Of a DNA stretch of 64,000 nt, positions 14,714 through 40,495 are shown in pieces; position 1 is the first letter of the stretch; the number at the start of each line of letters is the position of its first letter. Under the pieces are notes generated by a model that ran no database searches, was not told the DNA's origin, and saw only the letters and a program-made list of their open reading frames with translations. The DNA is from Streptomyces sp. M41(2017) (GTDB lineage: Bacteria > Actinomycetota > Actinomycetes > Streptomycetales > Streptomycetaceae). A program made the translations under genes and the position numbers. Where the stretch lies: contig NZ_MWFK01000001.1 in assembly GCF_002078175.1 (NCBI RefSeq), positions 4,154,001 to 4,218,000 on the forward strand, given 5' to 3'.

Positions 14714-15070
14714 GACGGCCTCCTCGGCCCCCGCGACGGAGGGCCACTGACGAGGGTGACGCCCCGGCGACCGCCGGCGACGGGTGCCGGGCGGTCCGGC
14801 TCCGCCCGAGCCAACGATCACCGTCGACCCGGGTCACTGGCGTGGCCGCGCACCGCACCCGGGATGACGGATTTTCACCCGCCCGTGGACGCAAGTGCCG
14901 TCGTGGCGGCCGCGAACGACCGCTCGGCCGACCGGGATCGACCCGATCCGTGGCGGCTCCCGCGGAGTCGGCCGGCTGTCGGCCGGACCGCCGCGGGTCC
15001 GGCCGGAGCGGGGCGCGTGCCGCTCGACGGCCGGACCGTGCGGCGCGACGGGCGGGGTCGGGCGAGCCGG
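14714..15070. other. 357-bp gap without a recognised gene
   Basis: The gap lies between two minus-strand genes and should hold the promoter of the 54-aa gene near 14714-14830 and the 3' end of the LLM transcript. GC-rich, with no clear hairpin, repeat or RNA seen. Confidence 0.5.
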
Positions 15071-17268: not shown

Positions 17269-17982
17269 CTACAGCTGCTCGGCGAGCTGCGGGTACAGGC
17301 CGCTGAGGTCGCCCGAGAGGCCGGCCTTGACCTGGCGGGTCACCGCGTCGGCGAGAACCTCGTGGGCGTCCGCCTCGATGCCGTCGAGGGCCTCGGCCGC
17401 GACACTGTGCGCGGAGACCTTGGGCACGTCGAGACCGGCGGTCAGATCCGTGTCGACATAGCCGACGTGCAGCCCGGTGACCTTGATCCCGCGCGGCCGG
17501 AGCTCCAGGCGCAGCGCGTTGCTCTGCGACCACAGGGCGGCCTTCGAGGCGCTGTATCCGTCCGTGCCGGGGACCGTCATCCAGGACAGCACGGAGTGGA
17601 CGGTCAGGATGTGTCCGCCGCCGTTGCGCTCCAGGACCGGGACGAACGCCCGGGTGGTGAGCAGGGGACCGAAGAAGTTGATGTCGAACTCGCGCCGTAC
17701 GTCCTCGACGGGGGAGTCCAGGAACGACGTCCGTCCCGATCCGCCCGCGTTGTTGATCAGGATCGTGACGTCCTGGGCCCGCTCGGCGGCGGCCGCGACC
17801 GACGCGGGGTCGGTGACCTCCAGCGCCAGCGGCACCGCGTCGGGGTGGGAGACCGACTTCGGGTCGCGGGCGGTCGCGTACACCTTGGCGGCGCCCCGCT
17901 CGTAGAGGGACTCCACGAACGCCTTGCCGATACCGCGGCTGCCGCCGGTCACCAGTGCCACGGAACCTTCGATGCTGGTCAT
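17269..17982 (-). CDS. SDR-family oxidoreductase
   Basis: 237 aa. Classical short-chain dehydrogenase: cofactor motif TGGSRGIG (residues 12-19), NNAGG, catalytic Ser region HSVLSWMTVPG and active-site YSASK. ARDPK after the second strand suggests an NADP preference. It is divergent from a TetR gene; two palindromes between them make it the likely TetR target. Substrate unknown. Confidence 0.92.
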   Translation of the reverse strand: MTSIEGSVALVTGGSRGIGKAFVESLYERGAAKVYATARDPKSVSHPDAVPLALEVTDPASVAAAAERAQDVTILINNAGGSGRTSFLDSPVEDVRREFDINFFGPLLTTRAFVPVLERNGGGHILTVHSVLSWMTVPGTDGYSASKAALWSQSNALRLELRPRGIKVTGLHVGYVDTDLTAGLDVPKVSAHSVAAEALDGIEADAHEVLADAVTRQVKAGLSGDLSGLYPQLAEQL

Positions 17983-30074: not shown

Positions 30075-30397
30075 GGAGCAGGCTGTCCTGCTTTCAACCT
30101 TAGGAATGGTACGGCTCTGTCGGGCAAACGTGCCCGGCGGGCTTTCTCCGGACATCTGCCGCTGTGTCCCCGGGCCGTCCGGGGCTCCTTTCGGGACGTT
30201 CGGTCCGATACGGGGCTCTGTACCCAGGGGAACGGTCCCGCTCCCGTGTGTGCTCCCGCCGTTACACGGCTATCGAAGATCCGTGACGCCGTGACGGACG
30301 GGCCGACGGTTCTCCCGCCCCTCCAGGCCCCAGGGCCCCGACATCCCCTCGCGGCGCGGGCCCGGCGAGGACACCCGCGGAGCGCCCTATCGCGCAC
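30075..30397. other. Divergent intergenic region between RsbW-like and aromatic-CoA genes
   Basis: No gene is seen. The RsbW-like promoter should lie in the AT-richer patch around 30090-30115. The middle is GC-rich and unremarkable. The operator/promoter of the enoyl-CoA hydratase operon follows at 30398-30427. Confidence 0.45.
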
Positions 30398-30427
30398 TCG
30401 TGACGACAGTCACGAATGAGTGATAAC
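30398..30427 (+). promoter_or_regulatory. Palindromic operator plus -10 module, copy 1
   Basis: TCGTGAC-gaca-GTCACGA (30398-30415) is a perfect 18-bp palindrome. GATAAC at 30422-30427 is a likely -10, placed 17 bp after the -35-like CGTGAC inside the palindrome. The core TGACGACAGTCA and the offset to GATAAC are identical in copy 2 (36307-36335), so both were probably shaped by one repressor acting on the -35. The PaaX-type protein encoded between them is the best candidate. Confidence 0.75.
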
Positions 30428-30475
30428 TTCGGAGAGCAGTCGCAGCGTCGCCCCCGCCCGAGGAGGCCGCACCTC

Positions 30476-31303
30476 ATGAGTCCCTTCACCGGCTCCGCCG
30501 CCCGCACCCCCGAGTGGGAGCATCTGGGCTACGAGCTCACCGACGGGGTCGCCACGGTGACCCTGGCCCGCCCCGAGAAACTCAACGCCCTCACCTTCGG
30601 CGCCTACGCCGACCTGCGGGACCTGCTCGCCGAGCTGTCCCGCGAGCGGTCCGTCCGCGCCCTGGTGCTGGCCGGGGAGGGACGCGGATTCTGCTCCGGC
30701 GGCGACGTCGACGAGATCATCGGCGCGACCCTCGCCATGGACACCGCCCAGCTCCTGGACTTCAACCGGATGACCGGCCAGGTGGTCCGTGCCGTCCGGG
30801 AGTGCCCGTTCCCGGTGATCGCCGCGGTGCACGGCGTCGCCGCGGGCGCCGGAGCCGTCCTCGCGCTCGCCGCCGACTTCCGGGTGGCCGACCCGAGCGC
30901 CCGGTTCGCCTTCCTCTTCACCCGCGTCGGCCTCTCCGGCGGCGACATGGGCGCCGCCTATCTGCTGCCCCGCGTGGTCGGGCTCGGTCACGCGACCCGG
31001 CTGCTGATGCTCGGCGAACCCGTGCGCGCGCCCGAGGCCGAGCGCATCGGCCTCATCAGCGAACTCACCGACGAGGGGCACGCCGACGAGGCCGCGCAGG
31101 CGCTGGCCCGCCGGCTCGCCGAGGGGCCCGCCCTCGCGTACGCCCAGACCAAGGCGCTGCTCACCGCCGAGCTGGACATGCCGCTCGCCGCCGCCGTCGA
31201 ACTGGACGCCGCGACCCAGGCCCTGCTGATGAACGGCGACGACTACGCGGAGTTCCACGCCGCGTTCACCGAGAAGCGGGCACCGAAGTGGCGGGGGAGG
31301 TGA
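30476..31303 (+). CDS. Enoyl-CoA hydratase/isomerase-family protein of the aromatic-CoA island
   Basis: 275 aa, ATG 30476 with GAGGAGG upstream. Crotonase fold: VTLARPEKLNALTFGAY, the CoA oxyanion motif GRGFCSGGDVDEI, and VIAAVHGVAAGAGAVLALAAD for the second oxyanion Gly. At the catalytic loop it reads FLFTRVGLSGGDMGAAYLLP: the usual first Glu (as in PEI) is absent and an Asp sits in the GGD turn. It may therefore catalyse an isomerisation, ring-related hydration or retro-aldol rather than plain hydration. It is followed after 7 bp by the bifunctional monooxygenase, so they form one operon. Confidence 0.9.
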   Translation: MSPFTGSAARTPEWEHLGYELTDGVATVTLARPEKLNALTFGAYADLRDLLAELSRERSVRALVLAGEGRGFCSGGDVDEIIGATLAMDTAQLLDFNRMTGQVVRAVRECPFPVIAAVHGVAAGAGAVLALAADFRVADPSARFAFLFTRVGLSGGDMGAAYLLPRVVGLGHATRLLMLGEPVRAPEAERIGLISELTDEGHADEAAQALARRLAEGPALAYAQTKALLTAELDMPLAAAVELDAATQALLMNGDDYAEFHAAFTEKRAPKWRGR

Positions 31304-31310
31304 CCGGCGG

Positions 31311-33656
31311 ATGCGCGCGGACGACGGACAGGGGAACGGGACCGACGACACGGGCGCCGGGCGCGGTCCGGGAGCCGGGACGGGCGCGCGGCGCGTCGCG
31401 GTGATCGGCGGCGGACCCGGCGGCCTCTACACCGCGGCCCTGCTCAAACGCCTCGATCCCGCCCGCGAGATCACCGTCTGGGAGCGCAACGCCCCCGACG
31501 ACACCTTCGGCTTCGGCGTCGTCCTGTCCGACGAGACCCTCGGCGGCATCGAACACGCCGACCCGGTCGTCTACGCGGCGCTCCGTGCGGAGTTCGTCCG
31601 CTGGGACGACATCGACGTCGTGCACCGCGGCGTCCGGCACACCTCGGGCGGCCACGGCTTCGCCGCGCTCGGCCGCCGCCGGCTCCTCGCGATCCTCCAC
31701 GAACGCTGCCGTTCCCTCGGCGTCGACCTCCGCTTCAGGGCCGAGGCCCCGCCGGTCGCCGACCTGATGACCGCGTACGACCTCGTGGTCGCCGCCGACG
31801 GCGCGGGCAGCCTCACCCGCGCGGCGCACGCGGACGTGTTCCGCCCGTCCGTCGAGGAACACCGCTGCCGCTACATCTGGCTGGCCGCCGACTTCGCCTT
31901 CGACGCCTTCCGCTTCGAGATCGCCGAGACCGAACACGGCGTGATGCAGCTGCACGGCTACCCGTTCGCGGCCGACGCCTCCACCGTCATCGTCGAGATG
32001 CGCGAGGAGGTCTGGCGGGCGGCGGGGTTCGCGGACCTCGACGAGAGCGGATCCGTCGAGCGGTGCGGCAAGATCTTCGCGGACGCGCTCGGCGGACGCC
32101 CGCTCACCTCCAACACGTCGGCGTGGACGCGCTTCCGCACCGTCGTCAACGCCCGCTGGTCGCACCGGAATCTGGTGCTGCTCGGTGACGCCGCGCACAC
32201 CGCGCACTTCTCCATCGGCTCCGGCACCAAGCTCGCCGTCGAGGACGCCCTCGCGCTGGCCGCCTGCCTGGAGGAGCACCCCTCGCTCGACCGGGCGCTG
32301 ACCGCCTACGAGGAGGAGCGACGCCCCGTCGTCACCTCCACCCAGCGGGCCGCCCGCGCCAGCCTGGAGTGGTTCGAGGACATCGACCGCCATCTCGGCC
32401 AGCCCTCACGGCAGTTCACATTCAACCTGCTCACCCGCAGCCGCCGGGTCACGCACGACAACCTGCGGCTGCGCGACCCGCGCTTCGTGGCCGCCGTCGA
32501 GCGGGAGTTCCGCTGCCCGCCCGGGACCCCGCCCATGTTCACCCCGTTCAGGCTGCGCGGCCTGACCCTGCGCAACCGGGTCGTCGTCTCGCCGATGGAC
32601 ATGTACTCCGCCCAGGACGGCGTGCCGGGCGACTTCCACCTCGTCCACCTGGGAGCACGCGCCCTCGGCGGCGCCGGCCTGGTGATGACCGAGATGGTGT
32701 GCGTCAGCGCCGAGGGCCGCATCACCCCGGGCTGCGCGACGCTCCAGACGCCCCGGCAGGCCGACGCCTGGCGGCGGATCGTCGAGTTCACGCACCGGCA
32801 GGCACCCGGCACCGCCATCGGCGTCCAGCTCGGCCACGCGGGGCGCAAGGGCTCGACCCGGCTGATGTGGGAGGGCATCGACGAACCCCTGCCCGACGGC
32901 AACTGGCCGCTCGTCGCCGCCTCCCCGCTCCCGTACCGGCCGGACAGCCAGACCCCCCGCGAACTGACCCGCGCGCAACTCACCGACCTGCGGCAGCAGT
33001 TCACCGAGGCCGCCTGCCGCGCCGCCCGCTGCGGCTTCGACCTCCTCGAACTGCACTGCGCCCACGGCTATCTGCTCTCCGGCTTCCTCTCCCCGCTGAC
33101 CAACCGGCGGACCGACGCCTATGGCGGATCGCTGGAGAAACGGCTCCGCTTCCCGCTCGAAGTGTTCGACGCGGTACGGGCCGTGTGGCCGGAGGAACGG
33201 CCGATGACCGTGCGCATCTCCGCCACCGACTGGGTCGAGGGCGGCACCACCGGGGACGACGCGGTCGCCGTCGCCCGGGCGTTCGCCGCGCACGGCGCCG
33301 ACGCGATCGACGTGTCGACCGGCCAGGTGGTCGCGGACGAACGCCCCGACTACGGCCGCTCGTACCAGACGCCGTACGCCGACCGGATCCGCCACGAGAC
33401 CGGTGCCCCGGTGATCGCCGTCGGTGCGATCTCGTCCTGGGACGACGTCAACTCCCTGATCCTGGCGGGCCGGACGGACCTGTGCGCGCTCGCCCGGCCG
33501 CACCTCTACGACCCGAACTGGACGCTCCACGCGGCGGCCGAGCAGGGCTACGAGGGCCCCGGCGTCAGCTGGCCGGAGCCCTACCGCGCGGGCAGCAGGC
33601 GCCCGCAGACCGGCCGTACGGACGCTCCCCGGCCGCGCCTCACACTGGGCCCGTAG
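31311..33656 (+). CDS. Bifunctional salicylyl-CoA 5-hydroxylase / 2-aminobenzoyl-CoA monooxygenase-reductase type flavoprotein
   Basis: 781 aa. The N-terminal part (~28-395) is a class A FAD monooxygenase: GGGPGG (33-38), and the second FAD motif LLGDAAHTAHFSIGSG (~285-305). The C-terminal part (~405-770) is an Old Yellow Enzyme-like NADH:flavin oxidoreductase: FTPFRLRGLTLRNRVVVSPM, GVQLGHAGRKGSTR, LLELHCAHGYLLSGFLSPLT, NRRTDAYGGSLEKRLRF. This two-domain build is known from 2-aminobenzoyl-CoA monooxygenase/reductase of Azoarcus and salicylyl-CoA hydroxylase homologs: the first domain hydroxylates the ring of the CoA ester, the second reduces it. The neighbouring CoA ligase, dehydrogenase and Rid protein support a CoA-bound aerobic aromatic pathway. 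Which acid is used cannot be decided from sequence alone. Confidence 0.88.
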   Translation: MRADDGQGNGTDDTGAGRGPGAGTGARRVAVIGGGPGGLYTAALLKRLDPAREITVWERNAPDDTFGFGVVLSDETLGGIEHADPVVYAALRAEFVRWDDIDVVHRGVRHTSGGHGFAALGRRRLLAILHERCRSLGVDLRFRAEAPPVADLMTAYDLVVAADGAGSLTRAAHADVFRPSVEEHRCRYIWLAADFAFDAFRFEIAETEHGVMQLHGYPFAADASTVIVEMREEVWRAAGFADLDESGSVERCGKIFADALGGRPLTSNTSAWTRFRTVVNARWSHRNLVLLGDAAHTAHFSIGSGTKLAVEDALALAACLEEHPSLDRALTAYEEERRPVVTSTQRAARASLEWFEDIDRHLGQPSRQFTFNLLTRSRRVTHDNLRLRDPRFVAAVEREFRCPPGTPPMFTPFRLRGLTLRNRVVVSPMDMYSAQDGVPGDFHLVHLGARALGGAGLVMTEMVCVSAEGRITPGCATLQTPRQADAWRRIVEFTHRQAPGTAIGVQLGHAGRKGSTRLMWEGIDEPLPDGNWPLVAASPLPYRPDSQTPRELTRAQLTDLRQQFTEAACRAARCGFDLLELHCAHGYLLSGFLSPLTNRRTDAYGGSLEKRLRFPLEVFDAVRAVWPEERPMTVRISATDWVEGGTTGDDAVAVARAFAAHGADAIDVSTGQVVADERPDYGRSYQTPYADRIRHETGAPVIAVGAISSWDDVNSLILAGRTDLCALARPHLYDPNWTLHAAAEQGYEGPGVSWPEPYRAGSRRPQTGRTDAPRPRLTLGP

Positions 33657-33686
33657 GAGAAGGGGTGTCGCAGGCCGGGTGCGGGG

Positions 33687-34529
33687 TCACTCCGCCCCGG
33701 GATGCCCCGACCGCGGGGACACCCCGGCGAACTCGGCTCCCGCGTCCCGCAGTCGGTCGTGCAGGGCCCCGAAGACCTGCGCCGAGCGGGAGCCCGGCCA
33801 GTCCTCGGGGAGGAGGGCCGCGGGCAGTCCCGGGTCCGTGTAGGGGAGGTGCCGCCAGGAGTCCAGAGCGAGGAGGTAGTCGCGGTAGGCGTCCTCGTGC
33901 GAGGTGTCACCGCGCGCCTCCCAGGCACGCAGGACGGGCTCGTGCTGGTCGAGGAACGCCTCGTGCTCCTTGGCGATCGCGGCCAGGTCCCACCAGCGGG
34001 CGACCGCGTCGGCTGTCGGGGCGAACCCGAGGTGCTCGCCGCGGAACAGCTCGACGTACGCGTCGAGGCGCAGCCGCTCCAGGGTGTGCCGGGTCTCCTC
34101 GTACAGCCGGGCGGGCGCGAGCCATACGCCGGGGGCGGCCGTGCCGAAGCCGAGACCGGCGAGCCGCGAGCGCAGGACGTGGCGCTTCTGCCGCTCCGAC
34201 TCGGGCACCGAGAAGACCGCGAGCACCCAGCCGTCGTCCTCGGGTGCCGCCGACGCGTACACCCGGCGGTCGCCGTCGTCGAGGAGCTGCCGCGCGTCCG
34301 GCGACAGCGCGTACCCGGCCGCGCCCCCGGCCGTGCGCGCCGGTTCCAGGAGCCCGCGCCGCTTGAGCCGGGACACCGACGAGCGTACGGAGGGCGCGTC
34401 CACGCCGACCGCCGCGAGCAGCCGGATCAGCTCGGCCACGGGCACCGGACCGGGCATGAAGCGGCCGTACGCGCCGTAGAACGTGACGATGAGGGACCGG
34501 GGGGCGTGCTGCTCTGACACGTTGATCAC
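33687..34529 (-). CDS. PaaX-family transcriptional regulator
   Basis: 280 aa from GTG 34529; GTG 34520 is an alternative three codons later. The N terminus (SLIVTFYGAYGRFMPGPVPV, then LAAVGVDAPSVRSSVSRLKR) is the PaaX winged helix. The middle (DDGWVLAVFSVPESERQKRH) and C terminus fit the PaaX effector domains. PaaX proteins repress aromatic-CoA pathways and are released by the aryl-CoA made by the pathway ligase. It lies 15 bp downstream of the ligase stop in one operon and likely binds the TGACGACAGTCA sites at 30401 and 36309. Two direct AGTGATC copies lie at its start. Confidence 0.9.
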   Translation of the reverse strand: MINVSEQHAPRSLIVTFYGAYGRFMPGPVPVAELIRLLAAVGVDAPSVRSSVSRLKRRGLLEPARTAGGAAGYALSPDARQLLDDGDRRVYASAAPEDDGWVLAVFSVPESERQKRHVLRSRLAGLGFGTAAPGVWLAPARLYEETRHTLERLRLDAYVELFRGEHLGFAPTADAVARWWDLAAIAKEHEAFLDQHEPVLRAWEARGDTSHEDAYRDYLLALDSWRHLPYTDPGLPAALLPEDWPGSRSAQVFGALHDRLRDAGAEFAGVSPRSGHPGAE

Positions 34530-34544
34530 TCTAGTGCGCGAAGA

Positions 34545-36230
34545 TCACTTGGGGCCCCCGCCGGGGGACGTATCACCCTCCGGCGCGACGGGTGACGGTG
34601 CGTCAGCGACAGGTTCCGCCCGCAGCAGGAACCGCTGGAGCTTGCCCGTGGCGGTGCGCGGCAGCGCGTCCGGGAAGACGATCTCGCGGGGGCACTTGTA
34701 CGGCGCCAGCTCGGACTTCAGGAAGACGCGCAGCTCCTCGGCGTCCCGGCGGGCGCCCTCCGTCAGCACCACATGGGCCACCACGATCTGGCCGCGCTCC
34801 TCGTCGGCCCGCCCGACCACCGCCGCCTCGACCACGTCGGGGTGCCGCAGCAGCGCGTCCTCGACCTCGGGTCCCGCGATGTTGTACCCCGCCGAGATGA
34901 TCATGTCGTCGGCGCGGGCCACGTACCGGAAGTAGCCGTCGGGGTCGCGCACGTAGGTGTCGCCGGTGATGTTCCAGCCGCCGCGCACGTACTCCCGCTG
35001 GCGGGGGTCCGCCAGGTAGCGGCAGCCGACCGGGCCTCGCACCGCGAGCAGCCCCGGCTCGCCGTCCGGCAGCGCGGTCCCCTCGGCGTCGACCACCCGC
35101 GCGCGCCAGCCGGGCACCGGCACGCCGGTCGTGCCGGGCCGGATGTCGCCGTCGGCGGCGGAGATGAAGATGTGCAGCAGCTCGGTCGCGCCGATGCCGT
35201 TGATGATGCGCAGCCCGGTGCGCTCGTGCCAGTCCCGCCAGGTCGCCGCCGGCAGGTTCTCGCCCGCGGACACGCAGCGCCGCAGCGACCCGGTGTCGTG
35301 GCCGTCCAGGTCCGCGAGCATCGCCCGGTAGGCGGTCGGTGCCGTGAACAGGACGGAGACGCGGTGCTCGGCGATCGCCGGCAACAGCTGCCTCGGGCCC
35401 GCCTGTTCGAGCAGCAGGGAACTGGCACCGGCGCGCAGCGGGAAGACGACGAGTCCGCCGAGTCCGAAGGTGAAACCCAGCGGAGGGCTCCCCGCGAAGA
35501 CGTCGTCCTCACGCGGGCGCAGCACATGCTCGGAGAAAGTGTCCGCCGTCGCCAGCAGATCGCGGTGGAAGTGCATGCAGCCCTTGGGCCGGCCGGTGGT
35601 GCCCGAGGTGAAGGCGATCAGCGCCACGTCGTCGGCGGCCGTGTCCGCCGGTTCGAACGGCCCGTCGGGAGCGCCGGTGATGCGCAGCAGCAGGTCGTCC
35701 GGCGCGTCACCGCCGTACGGCGTGATCCGCAGGCCGGGGACGCCCGCCCGGGCCAGGTCGTCGACCGAGCGGAGGTCGCACAGGGCGTGGGTCACCCGCG
35801 CGATCCCGCAGATGGTGCGCAGCTCGTGCGGCCGCTGCTGCGCGAGCACGGTGACCGCGACGGCGCCCGCCTTCAGCACCGCCAGCCAGCACGCGGCCAG
35901 CCACGGGGTGGTGGGTCCGCGCAGCAGCACCCGGTTGCCCGGCACGACGCCCAGTTGGCCCGTGAGGACGTGGGCGATGCGGTCGACGCGGTCGCGCAGG
36001 TGCCCGTACGTCCAGGGAGGGCCGGACGGGGTGTGGAAGGCGGGGCGTCCGGGATCGGTCCCGGCGAGGAGTTCCGCGGCGCAGTTCAGCCGGTCGGGGT
36101 AACGCAGCCCCGGCAGGTCGAAGAGGAGCTCGGGCCACTGCTCGGGGGGCGGGAGATGGTCGCGCGCGAAGGTGTCGACGTGGGCCGAGTGTGCCGGCGC
36201 CAAGGTGTCCGCGGGGTCCACGGGATGCAT
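34545..36230 (-). CDS. Aryl-CoA ligase (benzoate/2-aminobenzoate-CoA ligase type)
   Basis: 561 aa. ANL-superfamily adenylating enzyme: P-loop-like AFTSGTTGRPKGCMHFH, A5-type GIGATELLHIFISA, the hinge GYFRYVARADDMIISAGYNI and the catalytic Lys in PRTATGKLQRF. The sequence around PPEQWPELLFDLPGLRYPDRLN and TELLHIFIS is typical of benzoate-CoA-ligase relatives. It activates an aromatic acid to its CoA thioester with ATP, the first step of the island's pathway. It is transcribed divergently from the acyl-CoA dehydrogenase gene. On its strand a -35 TTGACT overlaps the shared operator, and TACGCT lies 16 bp downstream as -10. Confidence 0.9.
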   Translation of the reverse strand: MHPVDPADTLAPAHSAHVDTFARDHLPPPEQWPELLFDLPGLRYPDRLNCAAELLAGTDPGRPAFHTPSGPPWTYGHLRDRVDRIAHVLTGQLGVVPGNRVLLRGPTTPWLAACWLAVLKAGAVAVTVLAQQRPHELRTICGIARVTHALCDLRSVDDLARAGVPGLRITPYGGDAPDDLLLRITGAPDGPFEPADTAADDVALIAFTSGTTGRPKGCMHFHRDLLATADTFSEHVLRPREDDVFAGSPPLGFTFGLGGLVVFPLRAGASSLLLEQAGPRQLLPAIAEHRVSVLFTAPTAYRAMLADLDGHDTGSLRRCVSAGENLPAATWRDWHERTGLRIINGIGATELLHIFISAADGDIRPGTTGVPVPGWRARVVDAEGTALPDGEPGLLAVRGPVGCRYLADPRQREYVRGGWNITGDTYVRDPDGYFRYVARADDMIISAGYNIAGPEVEDALLRHPDVVEAAVVGRADEERGQIVVAHVVLTEGARRDAEELRVFLKSELAPYKCPREIVFPDALPRTATGKLQRFLLRAEPVADAPSPVAPEGDTSPGGGPK

Positions 36231-36306
36231 GGCGGTTCGCCCCCTTGCCTTTGTGGGCTGCCTTCGTGGGCGTCGTGGTGGGCTCGCACAAGGAGCGTAT
36301 CGTGTT

Positions 36307-36335
36307 GGTGACGACAGTCAACGGTTCGCGATAAC
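36307..36335. promoter_or_regulatory. Operator plus -10 module, copy 2, in a divergent promoter
   Basis: The core TGACGACAGTCA lies at 36309-36320 and GATAAC at 36330-36335, with the same 21-bp offset as copy 1. GGTGAC-17 bp-GATAAC drives the acyl-CoA dehydrogenase side. The reverse strand reads TTGACT-16 bp-TACGCT toward the ligase. A repressor bound here would block both promoters. Confidence 0.75.
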
Positions 36336-36369
36336 GTGGGACGGTGTCCGACGGGGAGAGGGACCGGCA

Positions 36370-37517
36370 ATGACCGCATTCTCACTGGAACCGGGACAGA
36401 CCGCCTGGTGCGCCGAACTGCGCACCCTGGCCGCCGACCACCTGCGTCCGCTGGCCGACAAGGGCGAGCCGGGCCACGTCAACCGCCCGCTGGTCGCCGA
36501 GCTCGGCCGACTCGGACTGCTCGGCCGCCTGTTCACCTCCGGCGCACTCGACCTCTGCCTGATGCGCGAATCCCTCGCCCAGGTCAGCACCGAGGCCGAG
36601 ACCGCGCTCGCCCTCCAGGGCCTCGGCGCCCACCCGGTCCACGCCCATGGCACCGCCGCCCAGCGCGAGCGCTGGCTGCCCCGCGTCGCGGACGGCGAGG
36701 CGGTCGCCGCCTTCGCGCTGAGCGAGCCCGGCGCAGGCTCCGACGCGGCCGCGCTGGCGCTCCGCGCGGACGAGGACGGCTCCGGCGGCTGGCGGCTCAC
36801 CGGCGAGAAGTGCTGGATCTCCAACGCCCCCGAGGCCGACCTCTACACGGTCTTCGCCCGCACGGGACCCGCCTCCGGCGCCCGCGGCGTCACCGCGTTC
36901 CTCGTCCCGGCCGACCGCCCCGGCCTCACCGGCACCCCGCTCGACCTGCTCTCGCCGCACCCCATCGGCGCCCTCGCCTTCGACGCCGTCCCCGTCACCA
37001 CCGACGACGTCCTCGGCGAGCCCGGCCACGGCTTCCGGGTCGCCATGAGCACCCTCAACCTTTTCCGGCCCAGCGTGGGCGCCTTCGCCGTCGGCATGGC
37101 CCAGGCCGCGCTGGACGCCACCCTCGCCCACACCACGCGCCGCACCGCGTTCGACGGCCCGCTCAAGGACCTCCAGACCGTGTCCCACCAGGTCGCCGAG
37201 ATGGCCCTGCGCACCGAGGCGGCCCGCCTGATGGTCTACGCGGCCGCCGCGGCTCACGACGCCGGGGCCCCCGACGTGCCCCGCCGCGCCGCGATGGCCA
37301 AGCTGCTCGCGACCGAGACCGCCCAGTACGTCGTCGACGCCGCCGTCCAACTGCACGGAGCACGCGCCCTGCAGCGCGGCCACCTCCTCGAACACCTCTA
37401 CCGCGAGGTGCGCGCGCCGCGCATCTACGAGGGAGCGAGCGAGGTCCAACGAGCCGTCATCGCAAAAGAGTTGTACCGAAAGGCCGCACAGCCCCGGCCG
37501 ACGGGATCGGAGACCGT

Positions 37518-37521
<4 letters not shown>
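36370..37521 (+). CDS. Acyl-CoA dehydrogenase of the aromatic-CoA island
   Basis: 383 aa, ATG 36370 (GGGGAGAGGG upstream). The three-domain dehydrogenase fold is visible: FALSEPGAGSDAAALALRA, GWRLTGEKCWISNAPEADLY for FAD/substrate binding, the central beta domain, and the C-terminal helices with YEGASEVQRAVIAKEL, which carries the usual catalytic Glu. It transfers electrons from a CoA thioester to ETF. In the pathway it would act on the reduced alicyclic CoA ester after the ring attack. It overlaps the Rid-family gene (ATGA). Confidence 0.92.
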
Positions 37522-38847
<1,326 letters not shown>

Positions 38848-38965: not shown

Positions 38966-40495
38966 TCAGATGTCCCGGAAGATCTCGATCTGCGCCCCGA
39001 TCGAGTTCAGGCGCTCCGCGAGGTCCTCGTAGCCGCGGTTGATGACGTACACGTTGCGCAGCACCGAGGTGCCGTCGGCGGCCATCATCGCGAGGAGGAC
39101 GACCACGGCGGGGCGCAGTGCGGGCGGGCACATCATCTCGGCGGCGCGCCAGCGGGTCGGGCCCTCGACGAGGACGCGGTGCGGGTCGAGGAGCTGGAGC
39201 CGGCCGCCGAGGCGGTTCAGGTCCGTGAGGTAGATCGCCCGGTTGTCGTAGACCCAGTCGTGGATCAGCGTCTTGCCCTGCGCGGAGGCCGCGATGGCCG
39301 CGAAGAACGGGACGTTGTCGATGTTCAGGCCGGGGAACGGCATCGGGTGGATCTTGTCGATGGGCGCCTCCAGCTTGGAGGGCCGCACCGTCAGGTCCAC
39401 CAGTCGCGTACGTCCGTTGTCCGCGAAGTACTCGGGCGTGCGGTCGTGGTCGAGGCCCATCTCCTCCAGGACCGCGAGCTCGATCTCCAGGAACTCGATC
39501 GGCACCCGCCGCACCGTCAGCTCCGACTCGGTGACCACGGCGGCGGCGAGCAGGCTCATCGCCTCGACCGGGTCCTCGGAGGGCGAGTAGTCGACGTCGA
39601 CGTCGATGTTCGGCACGCCGTGCACGGTGAGGGTCGTGGTGCCGATGCCCTCCACCCGTACGCCCAGGGCCTCCAGGAAGAAGCACAGGTCCTGGACCAT
39701 GTAGTTGGACGAGGCGTTGCGGATGACGGTGACGCCGTCGTGGCGGGCGGCGGCGAGCAGCGCGTTCTCGGTGACGGTGTCCCCGCGCTCGGTCAGCACG
39801 ATCGGCCGCCCGGGGGTGACGGACCGGTCGACCTGGGCGTGGTACAGCCCCTCGGTCGCCGCGATGTCGAGCCCGAACCGGCGCAGCGCGATCATGTGCG
39901 GCTCGATGGTCCGGGTACCGAGGTCGCAACCGCCCGCGTACGGCAGCTTGAAGGCGTCCAGGCGGTGCAGCAGCGGGCCCAGGAACATGATGATGGAGCG
40001 CGTACGACGGGCGGCGGCCGCGTCGATCGCCTCCATGTCCAGCTCGCTCGGCGGCACGATCTCCAGGTCGACGCCGTCGTTGATCCAGCGGGTGCGGACA
40101 CCGATCGAGCCGAGTACCTCCAGAAGGCGGTACACCTCTTCGATGCGGGCGACCCGGCGCAGCACCGTGCGGCCCTTGTTCAGCAGCGTCGCGCACAGCA
40201 GCGCGACACACGCGTTCTTGCTGGTCTTGACGTCGATCGAGCCGGACAGACGACGCCCGCCCACGACACGCAGATGCATCGGACCCGCGTAGCCGAGCGA
40301 GACGATCTCGCTGTCCAGCGCTTCACCGATACGGGCGATCATCTCAAGGCTGATGTTCTGGTTGCCGCGCTCGATGCGATTGACGGCGCTCTGACTGGTG
40401 CCGAGCGCCTCGGCAAGCTGCGACTGTGTCCAGCCCCGGTGTTGCCGGGCGTCACGGATGAGCTTGCCGATACGTACGAGGTAGTCGTCTGCCAT
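38966..40495 (-). CDS. murA2: HTH-MurA fusion: UDP-GlcNAc 1-carboxyvinyltransferase paralog with N-terminal XRE domain
   Basis: 509 aa. Residues 5-62 are an XRE/Cro helix-turn-helix (IGKLIRDARQHRGWTQSQLA, then LGTSQSAVNRIERGNQNIS). Residues ~73-509 are a full EPSP-synthase/MurA domain: K93-N94 in TSKNA, RTRSIIMFLGPLLHR, the PEP-binding Cys190 in YAGGCDLGTR, and MPFPGLNIDNVPFFAAIAAS, where housekeeping MurA has a TG-F-TD/MQ-type stretch. Catalytic Lys and Cys are kept, so enzyme activity is plausible. The DNA-binding domain suggests a cell-wall enzyme that also regulates genes. From memory it corresponds to SCO5998. It has its own AT-rich promoter at 40500-40540. Confidence 0.9.
   Translation of the reverse strand: MADDYLVRIGKLIRDARQHRGWTQSQLAEALGTSQSAVNRIERGNQNISLEMIARIGEALDSEIVSLGYAGPMHLRVVGGRRLSGSIDVKTSKNACVALLCATLLNKGRTVLRRVARIEEVYRLLEVLGSIGVRTRWINDGVDLEIVPPSELDMEAIDAAAARRTRSIIMFLGPLLHRLDAFKLPYAGGCDLGTRTIEPHMIALRRFGLDIAATEGLYHAQVDRSVTPGRPIVLTERGDTVTENALLAAARHDGVTVIRNASSNYMVQDLCFFLEALGVRVEGIGTTTLTVHGVPNIDVDVDYSPSEDPVEAMSLLAAAVVTESELTVRRVPIEFLEIELAVLEEMGLDHDRTPEYFADNGRTRLVDLTVRPSKLEAPIDKIHPMPFPGLNIDNVPFFAAIAASAQGKTLIHDWVYDNRAIYLTDLNRLGGRLQLLDPHRVLVEGPTRWRAAEMMCPPALRPAVVVLLAMMAADGTSVLRNVYVINRGYEDLAERLNSIGAQIEIFRDI

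Follow-up and report, generated by a model that had tools for sequence, protein, structure and literature searches.

The 64,000-nucleotide stretch of Streptomyces sp. M41(2017) analysed here, hereafter the window (contig NZ_MWFK01000001.1; all coordinates are window positions unless stated otherwise), carries an island of aromatic coenzyme A (CoA) genes in which one 12-mer, TGACGACAGTCA, occurs at 30401-30412 (copy 1) and 36309-36320 (copy 2), with a gene for a PaaX-family protein (33687-34529, minus strand) lying between the two copies. These repeats are read as operators of the PaaX-family repressor of the island, which would be relieved by anthraniloyl-CoA, and a probability of about 0.8 is given to this reading on the grounds of sequence comparison. 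The pair of operators itself is real and strongly conserved, and very probably that of the island's own repressor. It would represent a two-site regulon for a Streptomyces PaaX-family protein, kept through most of the genus; no described PaaX operator from Streptomyces was found in the open-access literature searched. The likely substrate of the island is placed at anthranilate, a metabolite of the tryptophan route. The conserved 38-bp layout of the operator gives an opening for studying how DNA is recognised by a PaaX dimer, the structure of a PaaX-DNA complex being described as unsolved as of 2022 (PMC9493321).

Repeat copies in the window and in the genome

In both copies GATAAC (30422-30427 and 36330-36335) follows the 12-mer at the same offset of 21 bp. 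This shared arrangement and the position of the PaaX gene between the copies had been claimed from an earlier, sequence-only reading and are confirmed, and exact TGACGACAGTCA occurs only twice in the 9.02-Mb genome, both times in this island. With up to one mismatch, 38 matches to TGACGACAGTCA are found in the genome and 14 to the reversed control. The extended form TGAC-N4-GTCA-N7-G-N-GATA gives six matches with up to one mismatch (reversed control, 0), the three exact ones corresponding to these two places, copy 1 being counted in both orientations. Loose matching in the window (up to three mismatches) is unremarkable, with 64 matches against 54.4 expected, a number reached by 13 of 100 shuffles, and the strength of the case therefore rests on the exact copies, their equal spacing and their conservation. 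Copy 2 is located between the divergent starts of the ligase gene (ATG 36230, minus strand) and the acyl-CoA dehydrogenase gene (ATG 36370, plus strand), and it does overlap a -35-like element of the opposite strand, as had been noted: TTGACT is found there on the minus strand (36321-36316).

A third site in the same genome, with one mismatch and the core TGACGGACGTCA, is located at C2:329608 (L242, 1501-1525), where a gene for a sodium/hydrogen exchanger starts. It lies 15-40 bp inside the longest open reading frame of the exchanger, or about 110 bp upstream if a later, likely methionine is the start. The site is either a chance match or a weak extra target, chance being the more likely.

Conservation within Streptomyces

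Conservation of the motif at related loci, which the sequence-only reading had named as a test of its proposal, was found at both promoters. A strict module, TGACGRCRGTCA-N9-GATA, is present in 232 of the 295 Streptomyces genomes scanned, and the reversed pattern used as control in none. A protein match with E <=1e-60, the best eight candidates per genome being scored, identifies 276 of the 295 genomes as PaaX-positive, including some with a weak homologue only; the strict module occurs in 231 of these 276 and in one of the 19 PaaX-negative genomes (Fisher 1.6e-12). The latter genome (G008) yields no PaaX even at E 1e-5; its ligase and monooxygenase genes are cut by contig ends where paaX would be expected, and the gene may be hidden in the gap. 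Among the 45 PaaX-positive genomes in which the strict module is missing, at least 15 carry a type-2-like site, GTCAACGGTNCGCGA, whose core or arm varies, although most matches of the looser pattern scan used for such variants are due to chance. Five of these variant-site genomes were inspected, all with the island and two of them lacking paaX. Genome G187 has a site and no island.

Individual sites were compared in 81 sequences, namely the window and the best 80 of 274 Streptomyces loci from a scan with the PaaX protein. Sites before the hydratase gene are referred to as type-1 and those in the divergent ligase/dehydrogenase promoter as type-2; both were selected for a core with at most two mismatches and GAT, GTT or GAC at position 22. 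A site is found upstream of the hydratase in 58 of 58 sequences with a tblastn match to this gene, and in the divergent promoter in 72 of 72 with a dehydrogenase match, seven of the 81 having neither gene. Both sites recur around the same island of ligase, monooxygenase/reductase, enoyl-CoA hydratase, acyl-CoA dehydrogenase, RidA and PaaX genes. This conservation, of the module and at both promoters, gives good support to a shared operator that is linked with the PaaX gene.

Architecture of the operator and predicted promoters

The repeats, their symmetry, their conservation and their geometry are direct observations. An inverted-repeat search resolves copy 1 as a 38-bp imperfect palindrome, TATC-N9-TGAC-N4-GTCA-N9-GATA, with 17-nucleotide arms (30388-30404 and 30409-30425) that are 82% complementary; none was reported at copy 2 by the same search. 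The perfect 18-bp palindrome formerly described at copy 1 is ruled out by the sequence and by this search, since the site is TCGTGAC-GACA-GTCACGA, perfect in its 7-bp arms alone. Among the distinct sites compared base by base (57 type-1 and 71 type-2, 128 in all), TGAC and GTCA never vary; conservation is lower in the spacers and rises again in the outer arm. About the core centre of type-1 sites, complementary pairs are found at -7/20 (96%), -9/22 (82%), -10/23 (96%), -11/24 (84%) and -12/25 (100%), and nearly never at -6/19 and -8/21 (4% and 2%). The left arm of type-2 sites is 2 bp closer to the core than that of type-1 sites.

In both types of site the bases T24, A25 and T29 never vary, giving TANNNT at 30424-30429 and 36332-36337. 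The right outer arm overlaps TANNNT in both types, and GATA is part of this arm. GATAAC, earlier taken as the -10, is therefore in the wrong register: the invariant promoter bases are T24, A25 and T29, GATA is mirrored as TATC to the left of copy 1, and the predicted hexamers are TAACTT and TAACGT. In type-2 sites the left arm overlaps TACGCT of the minus strand, with TTGACT 16 bp off, so that the predicted -35 boxes of the two divergent promoters both fall within the core. A strict scan for TATAAT-type promoters found no promoter at these sites. All features are listed in Table 1.

Table 1. Operator parts, predicted promoter elements and genes of the island, in window coordinates
Feature	Position	Strand	Evidence
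Copy 1, left outer arm TATCGCG	30388-30394		T-12, T-10, G-6 invariant and C-7 in 55/57 type-1 sites; pairs with right arm
Copy 1, predicted -35 GTGACG	30400-30405	+	18-bp spacer to TAACTT
Copy 1, core palindrome TGACGACAGTCA (TGAC-N4-GTCA)	30401-30412	+	58 type-1 sites: TGACGACAGTCA 48, TGACGACGGTCA 9, TGACGGCAGTCA 1
Copy 1, right outer arm GTGATA (contains GATA of the earlier reading)	30420-30425	+	Sequence, inverted repeat, site comparison
Copy 1, predicted -10 TAACTT	30424-30429	+	T24, A25, T28, T29 invariant in 57 sites
Enoyl-CoA hydratase, first gene behind copy 1	30476-31303	+	PF00378; NF006107, 397.3 bits (cut-off 330)
Flavin adenine dinucleotide (FAD) monooxygenase/old-yellow-enzyme fusion, probable anthraniloyl-CoA monooxygenase/reductase	31311-33656	+	NF006101, 1231.8 bits (cut-off 1078)
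PaaX-family repressor, proposed binder	33687-34529	-	PF07848, PF20803, PF08223, all above cut-off
Aryl-CoA ligase, probable anthranilate-CoA ligase	34545-36230	-	PF00501; 55% identical to pAL1 ligase
Predicted -10 TACGCT, ligase-paaX promoter	36294-36299	-	Bases giving T, A, T invariant in 71/71 sites
Copy 2, left outer arm TATCG	36298-36302		GAGCGTATCG at -15 to -6, each base in 71/71 distinct sites, T-8 in 70/71
Copy 2, predicted -35 GTGACG	36308-36313	+	18-bp spacer to TAACGT
Copy 2, core TGACGACAGTCA, overlaps predicted -35 of both divergent promoters	36309-36320	+	72 type-2 sites: TGACGACAGTCA 56, TGACGGCAGTCA 16
Predicted -35 TTGACT, ligase-paaX promoter	36321-36316	-	16-bp spacer to TACGCT
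Copy 2, right outer arm CGCGATA	36327-36333	+	All 7 positions invariant in 71/71 distinct sites
Copy 2, predicted -10 TAACGT, acyl-CoA dehydrogenase promoter	36332-36337	+	Site comparison
Acyl-CoA dehydrogenase	36370-37521	+	PF00441, PF02770, PF02771
RidA-family protein	37518-37916	+	PF01042; 48% identical to pAL1 RidA

Proposed mode of regulation

From this arrangement we infer PaaX as the binder, the promoters, their repression and anthraniloyl-CoA as the signal. A PaaX dimer would bind the 12-bp core, TGAC-N4-GTCA, and probably make additional contacts some 17 bp from the centre, at the outer arms (TATCGCG...CGCGATA/GTGATA). The core would cover the -35 and the start of the spacer, and the outer arm the -10, by which RNA polymerase would be blocked. 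At copy 2 a single bound operator would silence both ligase-paaX, an autoregulation, and dehydrogenase-ridA, because both -35 boxes fall in one palindrome, while copy 1, when bound, would silence hydratase-monooxygenase. The ligase would make anthraniloyl-CoA, and this CoA ester would release PaaX and turn the island on.

Sites outside the genus and at solitary paaX genes

Outside Streptomyces, 354 other genomes of the class were scanned, those with a PaaX match of E <=1e-50 being taken as positive. The strict module occurs in 6 of the 31 PaaX-positive and 2 of the 323 PaaX-negative genomes; in one of the six (G471) a distance of 23 kb separates the site from the paaX match, but a ligase gene adjoins it. 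TGAC-N4-GTCA cores number 26 in 16 of the 31 PaaX loci, against a shuffled mean of 6.7 and a largest value of 11 in 20 runs, and 14 of the 26 have the outer arm at 4-5 of its 5 positions, compared with 2.9% of shuffled flanks; several of these genomes are related, and the sites are not independent. Many of the 16 core-bearing loci have a hydratase, dehydrogenase, ligase or monooxygenase gene near the site. The PaaX genes of other actinobacterial families with related sites at some of their loci are 50-56% identical.

On a plasmid of Rhodococcus qingshengii (L145), a homologous PaaX-ligase-monooxygenase cluster is found near a tryptophan 2,3-dioxygenase gene and a gene with the fold of pyridoxal-phosphate-dependent class-V aminotransferases, a neighbourhood that accords with a tryptophan-to-anthranilate route. 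The stretch examined there contains no TGAC-N4-GTCA core.

Seven Streptomyces loci have a close paaX (84-88%) without the island beside it, and in four of them a core is located at most about 150 bp upstream of paaX. The genomes of all seven possess a diverged ligase-monooxygenase cluster elsewhere (tblastn: ligase 54-57%, monooxygenase 62-65%), with no core near its ligase, monooxygenase or RidA genes. At loci L015, L019, L061 and L066 a type-2-like operator stands upstream of the solitary paaX, as though the intervening ligase had been lost.

Alternative readings

Several observations weigh against the assignment of the operators to the PaaX protein of the island. In four genomes (G072, G075, G023 and G259) the island is retained with its two operators, and no paaX is found in the 13-16 kb examined, G023 having a short gap at the paaX position. 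The best PaaX matches elsewhere in these genomes are weak (E 5.3e-67 to 5.1e-76 among the best eight candidates per genome), so that another PaaX-family protein may bind in these strains. The core is absent at three of the seven solitary paaX loci, and 15 of the 31 PaaX loci outside the genus contain no TGAC-N4-GTCA. Comparison by eye of the winged helix-turn-helix region reveals no clear difference between PaaX proteins with and without a nearby core. Two PaaX-negative genomes outside the genus possess the strict module. Finally, the co-occurrence of module and PaaX in Streptomyces partly reflects physical linkage, and its 276 positives include the weak homologues mentioned above.

In three of the four genomes with operators and no island paaX, an open reading frame for a GNAT acetyltransferase (PF00583 above cut-off, 273-292 amino acids) occupies the place of paaX, both operators being kept (L243, 6808-7629; L244, 6865-7686; L252, 8655-9533).

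The operator may be read by another PaaX-family protein, a distant paralogue encoded elsewhere, alone or together with that of the island, and this is considered unlikely. The four genomes with a weaker PaaX match somewhere would fit such a paralogue, as would the two PaaX homologues of some genomes and the likeness of the winged helix-turn-helix region across paralogues. However, at four of the seven solitary orthologues the core is still present in the promoter of paaX itself, and the 231 of 276 against 1 of 19 association likewise favours the island protein, with the provision that some of the 276 have a weak homologue only. It is very improbable that the conserved block is a promoter signature alone (-35, spacer and -10, or that of an alternative sigma factor) and no operator. 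The -10-like conservation of T24, A25 and T29, the GTGACG 18 bp upstream and, in type 2, the invariant TTGACT of the other strand are all expected of a promoter, but copy 1 also has a conserved left arm (T-12, T-10, C-7, G-6) in a place with no expected promoter element, its -16 base misfits a minus-strand -10 (A in 6 of 57), type-1 sites have two-fold symmetry, and the two places stand alone in their genome. Ownership of the operator by some unrelated regulator (of the TetR, MarR or another family) with its gene elsewhere would suit the missing island paaX of the four genomes, but is scarcely credible beside the site kept at four of seven solitary paaX loci, the association with PaaX outside the genus and the parallel on the Arthrobacter plasmid pAL1.

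Genes of the island and likely substrate

The ligase gene lies 15 bp upstream of paaX, and the two are probably co-transcribed. The fusion protein has the NCBIfam name (NF006101) of salicylyl-CoA 5-hydroxylase/oxidoreductase, borne also by its counterpart on pAL1 of Arthrobacter sp. Rue61a, to which it is 61% identical. ARUE_113p00220 is a reported anthranilate-CoA ligase (PMC3534580), and the gene order fits its being the pAL1 ligase gene. The identities to the pAL1 ligase and monooxygenase, together with this reported activity, make anthranilate the likely substrate; the island probably degrades anthranilate, with salicylate as an alternative.

The PaaX protein of the window possesses the PaaX N-terminal, Cas2-like central and C-terminal domains by which the PaaX superfamily is recognised, and matches the E. 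coli PaaX structure 8a39 with a phmmer E of 3.4e-15. It scores 138.9 bits against the phenylacetate equivalog TIGR02277, below the curated cut-off of 264.55. Elsewhere in the window (38966-40495, minus strand), a MurA-like enzyme has an N-terminal helix-turn-helix of the Cro/C1 type, with Pfam HTH_3 and EPSP_synthase in one protein.

Comparison with known PaaX operators

The E. coli PaaX operator is described as TGATTC-N27-GAATCA (PMC9493321). E. coli PaaX responds to phenylacetyl-CoA. The E. coli system and that proposed for the window share the protein family, control of divergent promoters and autoregulation (PMC9493321), and the E. coli operator spans 39 bp against 38 bp in the window. The two proteins differ, however, with 26% identity over the tblastn segment, and so do the sites: the E. 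coli paaZ/paaA and paaX promoter regions contain no TGAC-N4-GTCA, even with one mismatch, and TGATTC and GAATCA are both missing from window positions 30300-30480 and 36200-36400. TCGCG and TCGTG adjoin the E. coli half-sites as well.

MeqR2, a PaaX-type repressor of Arthrobacter, is said to bind TGACGNNCGTCA at -35 to -24 of two promoters and to be released by anthraniloyl-CoA. In the part of pAL1 examined, exact matches to TGACGNNCGTCA are found at three places, two of them between divergent catabolic operons and the third upstream of a PaaX gene. A homologous anthranilate-CoA operon lies on the same plasmid, together with two genes for PaaX proteins that are 41-42% identical to that of the window. 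The window resembles this system in the PaaX-family gene adjoining genes for a predicted anthranilate-CoA ligase and a monooxygenase/reductase (55% and 61% identity), and in the TGAC-N4-GTCA core; going by the predicted -10, at positions 24-29 of either copy, its cores would also occupy the place reported for MeqR2, -35 to -24. It differs in its location on a chromosomal contig rather than a plasmid, in an extended 38-bp symmetry that is not known from MeqR2, and in the core itself, TGACGACAGTCA, which fits nine of the ten fixed positions of the consensus TGACGNNCGTCA and misses position 8. The window has A at this position, and each of the 128 distinct Streptomyces sites has A or G.

Two further sites on pAL1 (L143, 14756 and 17609) have one mismatch to TGACGNNCGTCA, with CGATATA and CGACATA, respectively, where the outer arm lies. 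The site at 17609 is just upstream of the gene row leading to the anthranilate-CoA ligase, and a gene for a superoxide dismutase follows about 335 bp downstream of that at 14756.

The sequence-only reading had proposed an operator not built like the E. coli PaaX site. This is borne out for the core, which the E. coli promoters lack, but not as a new type of operator, for the site resembles the reported MeqR2 operator and the pAL1 sites. With no core in the E. coli regions and neither TGATTC nor GAATCA in those of the window, the window would fall with the MeqR2 type. No description of the extended 38-bp layout was found in the literature searched, a weak negative as this was mostly open-access. 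A speculative extension, doubtful but worth stating, is that actinobacterial PaaX operators are two-tier, an inner TGAC-N4-GTCA with outer arms TATCGCG/CGCGATA about 17 bp to either side being read by two dimers or by one with wrapped DNA; such a plan would join the E. coli and MeqR2 types of site, the outer arm doubling as the -10. The operator core looks like a Streptomyces version of the kind of switch described for Arthrobacter, the extended architecture being the added feature.

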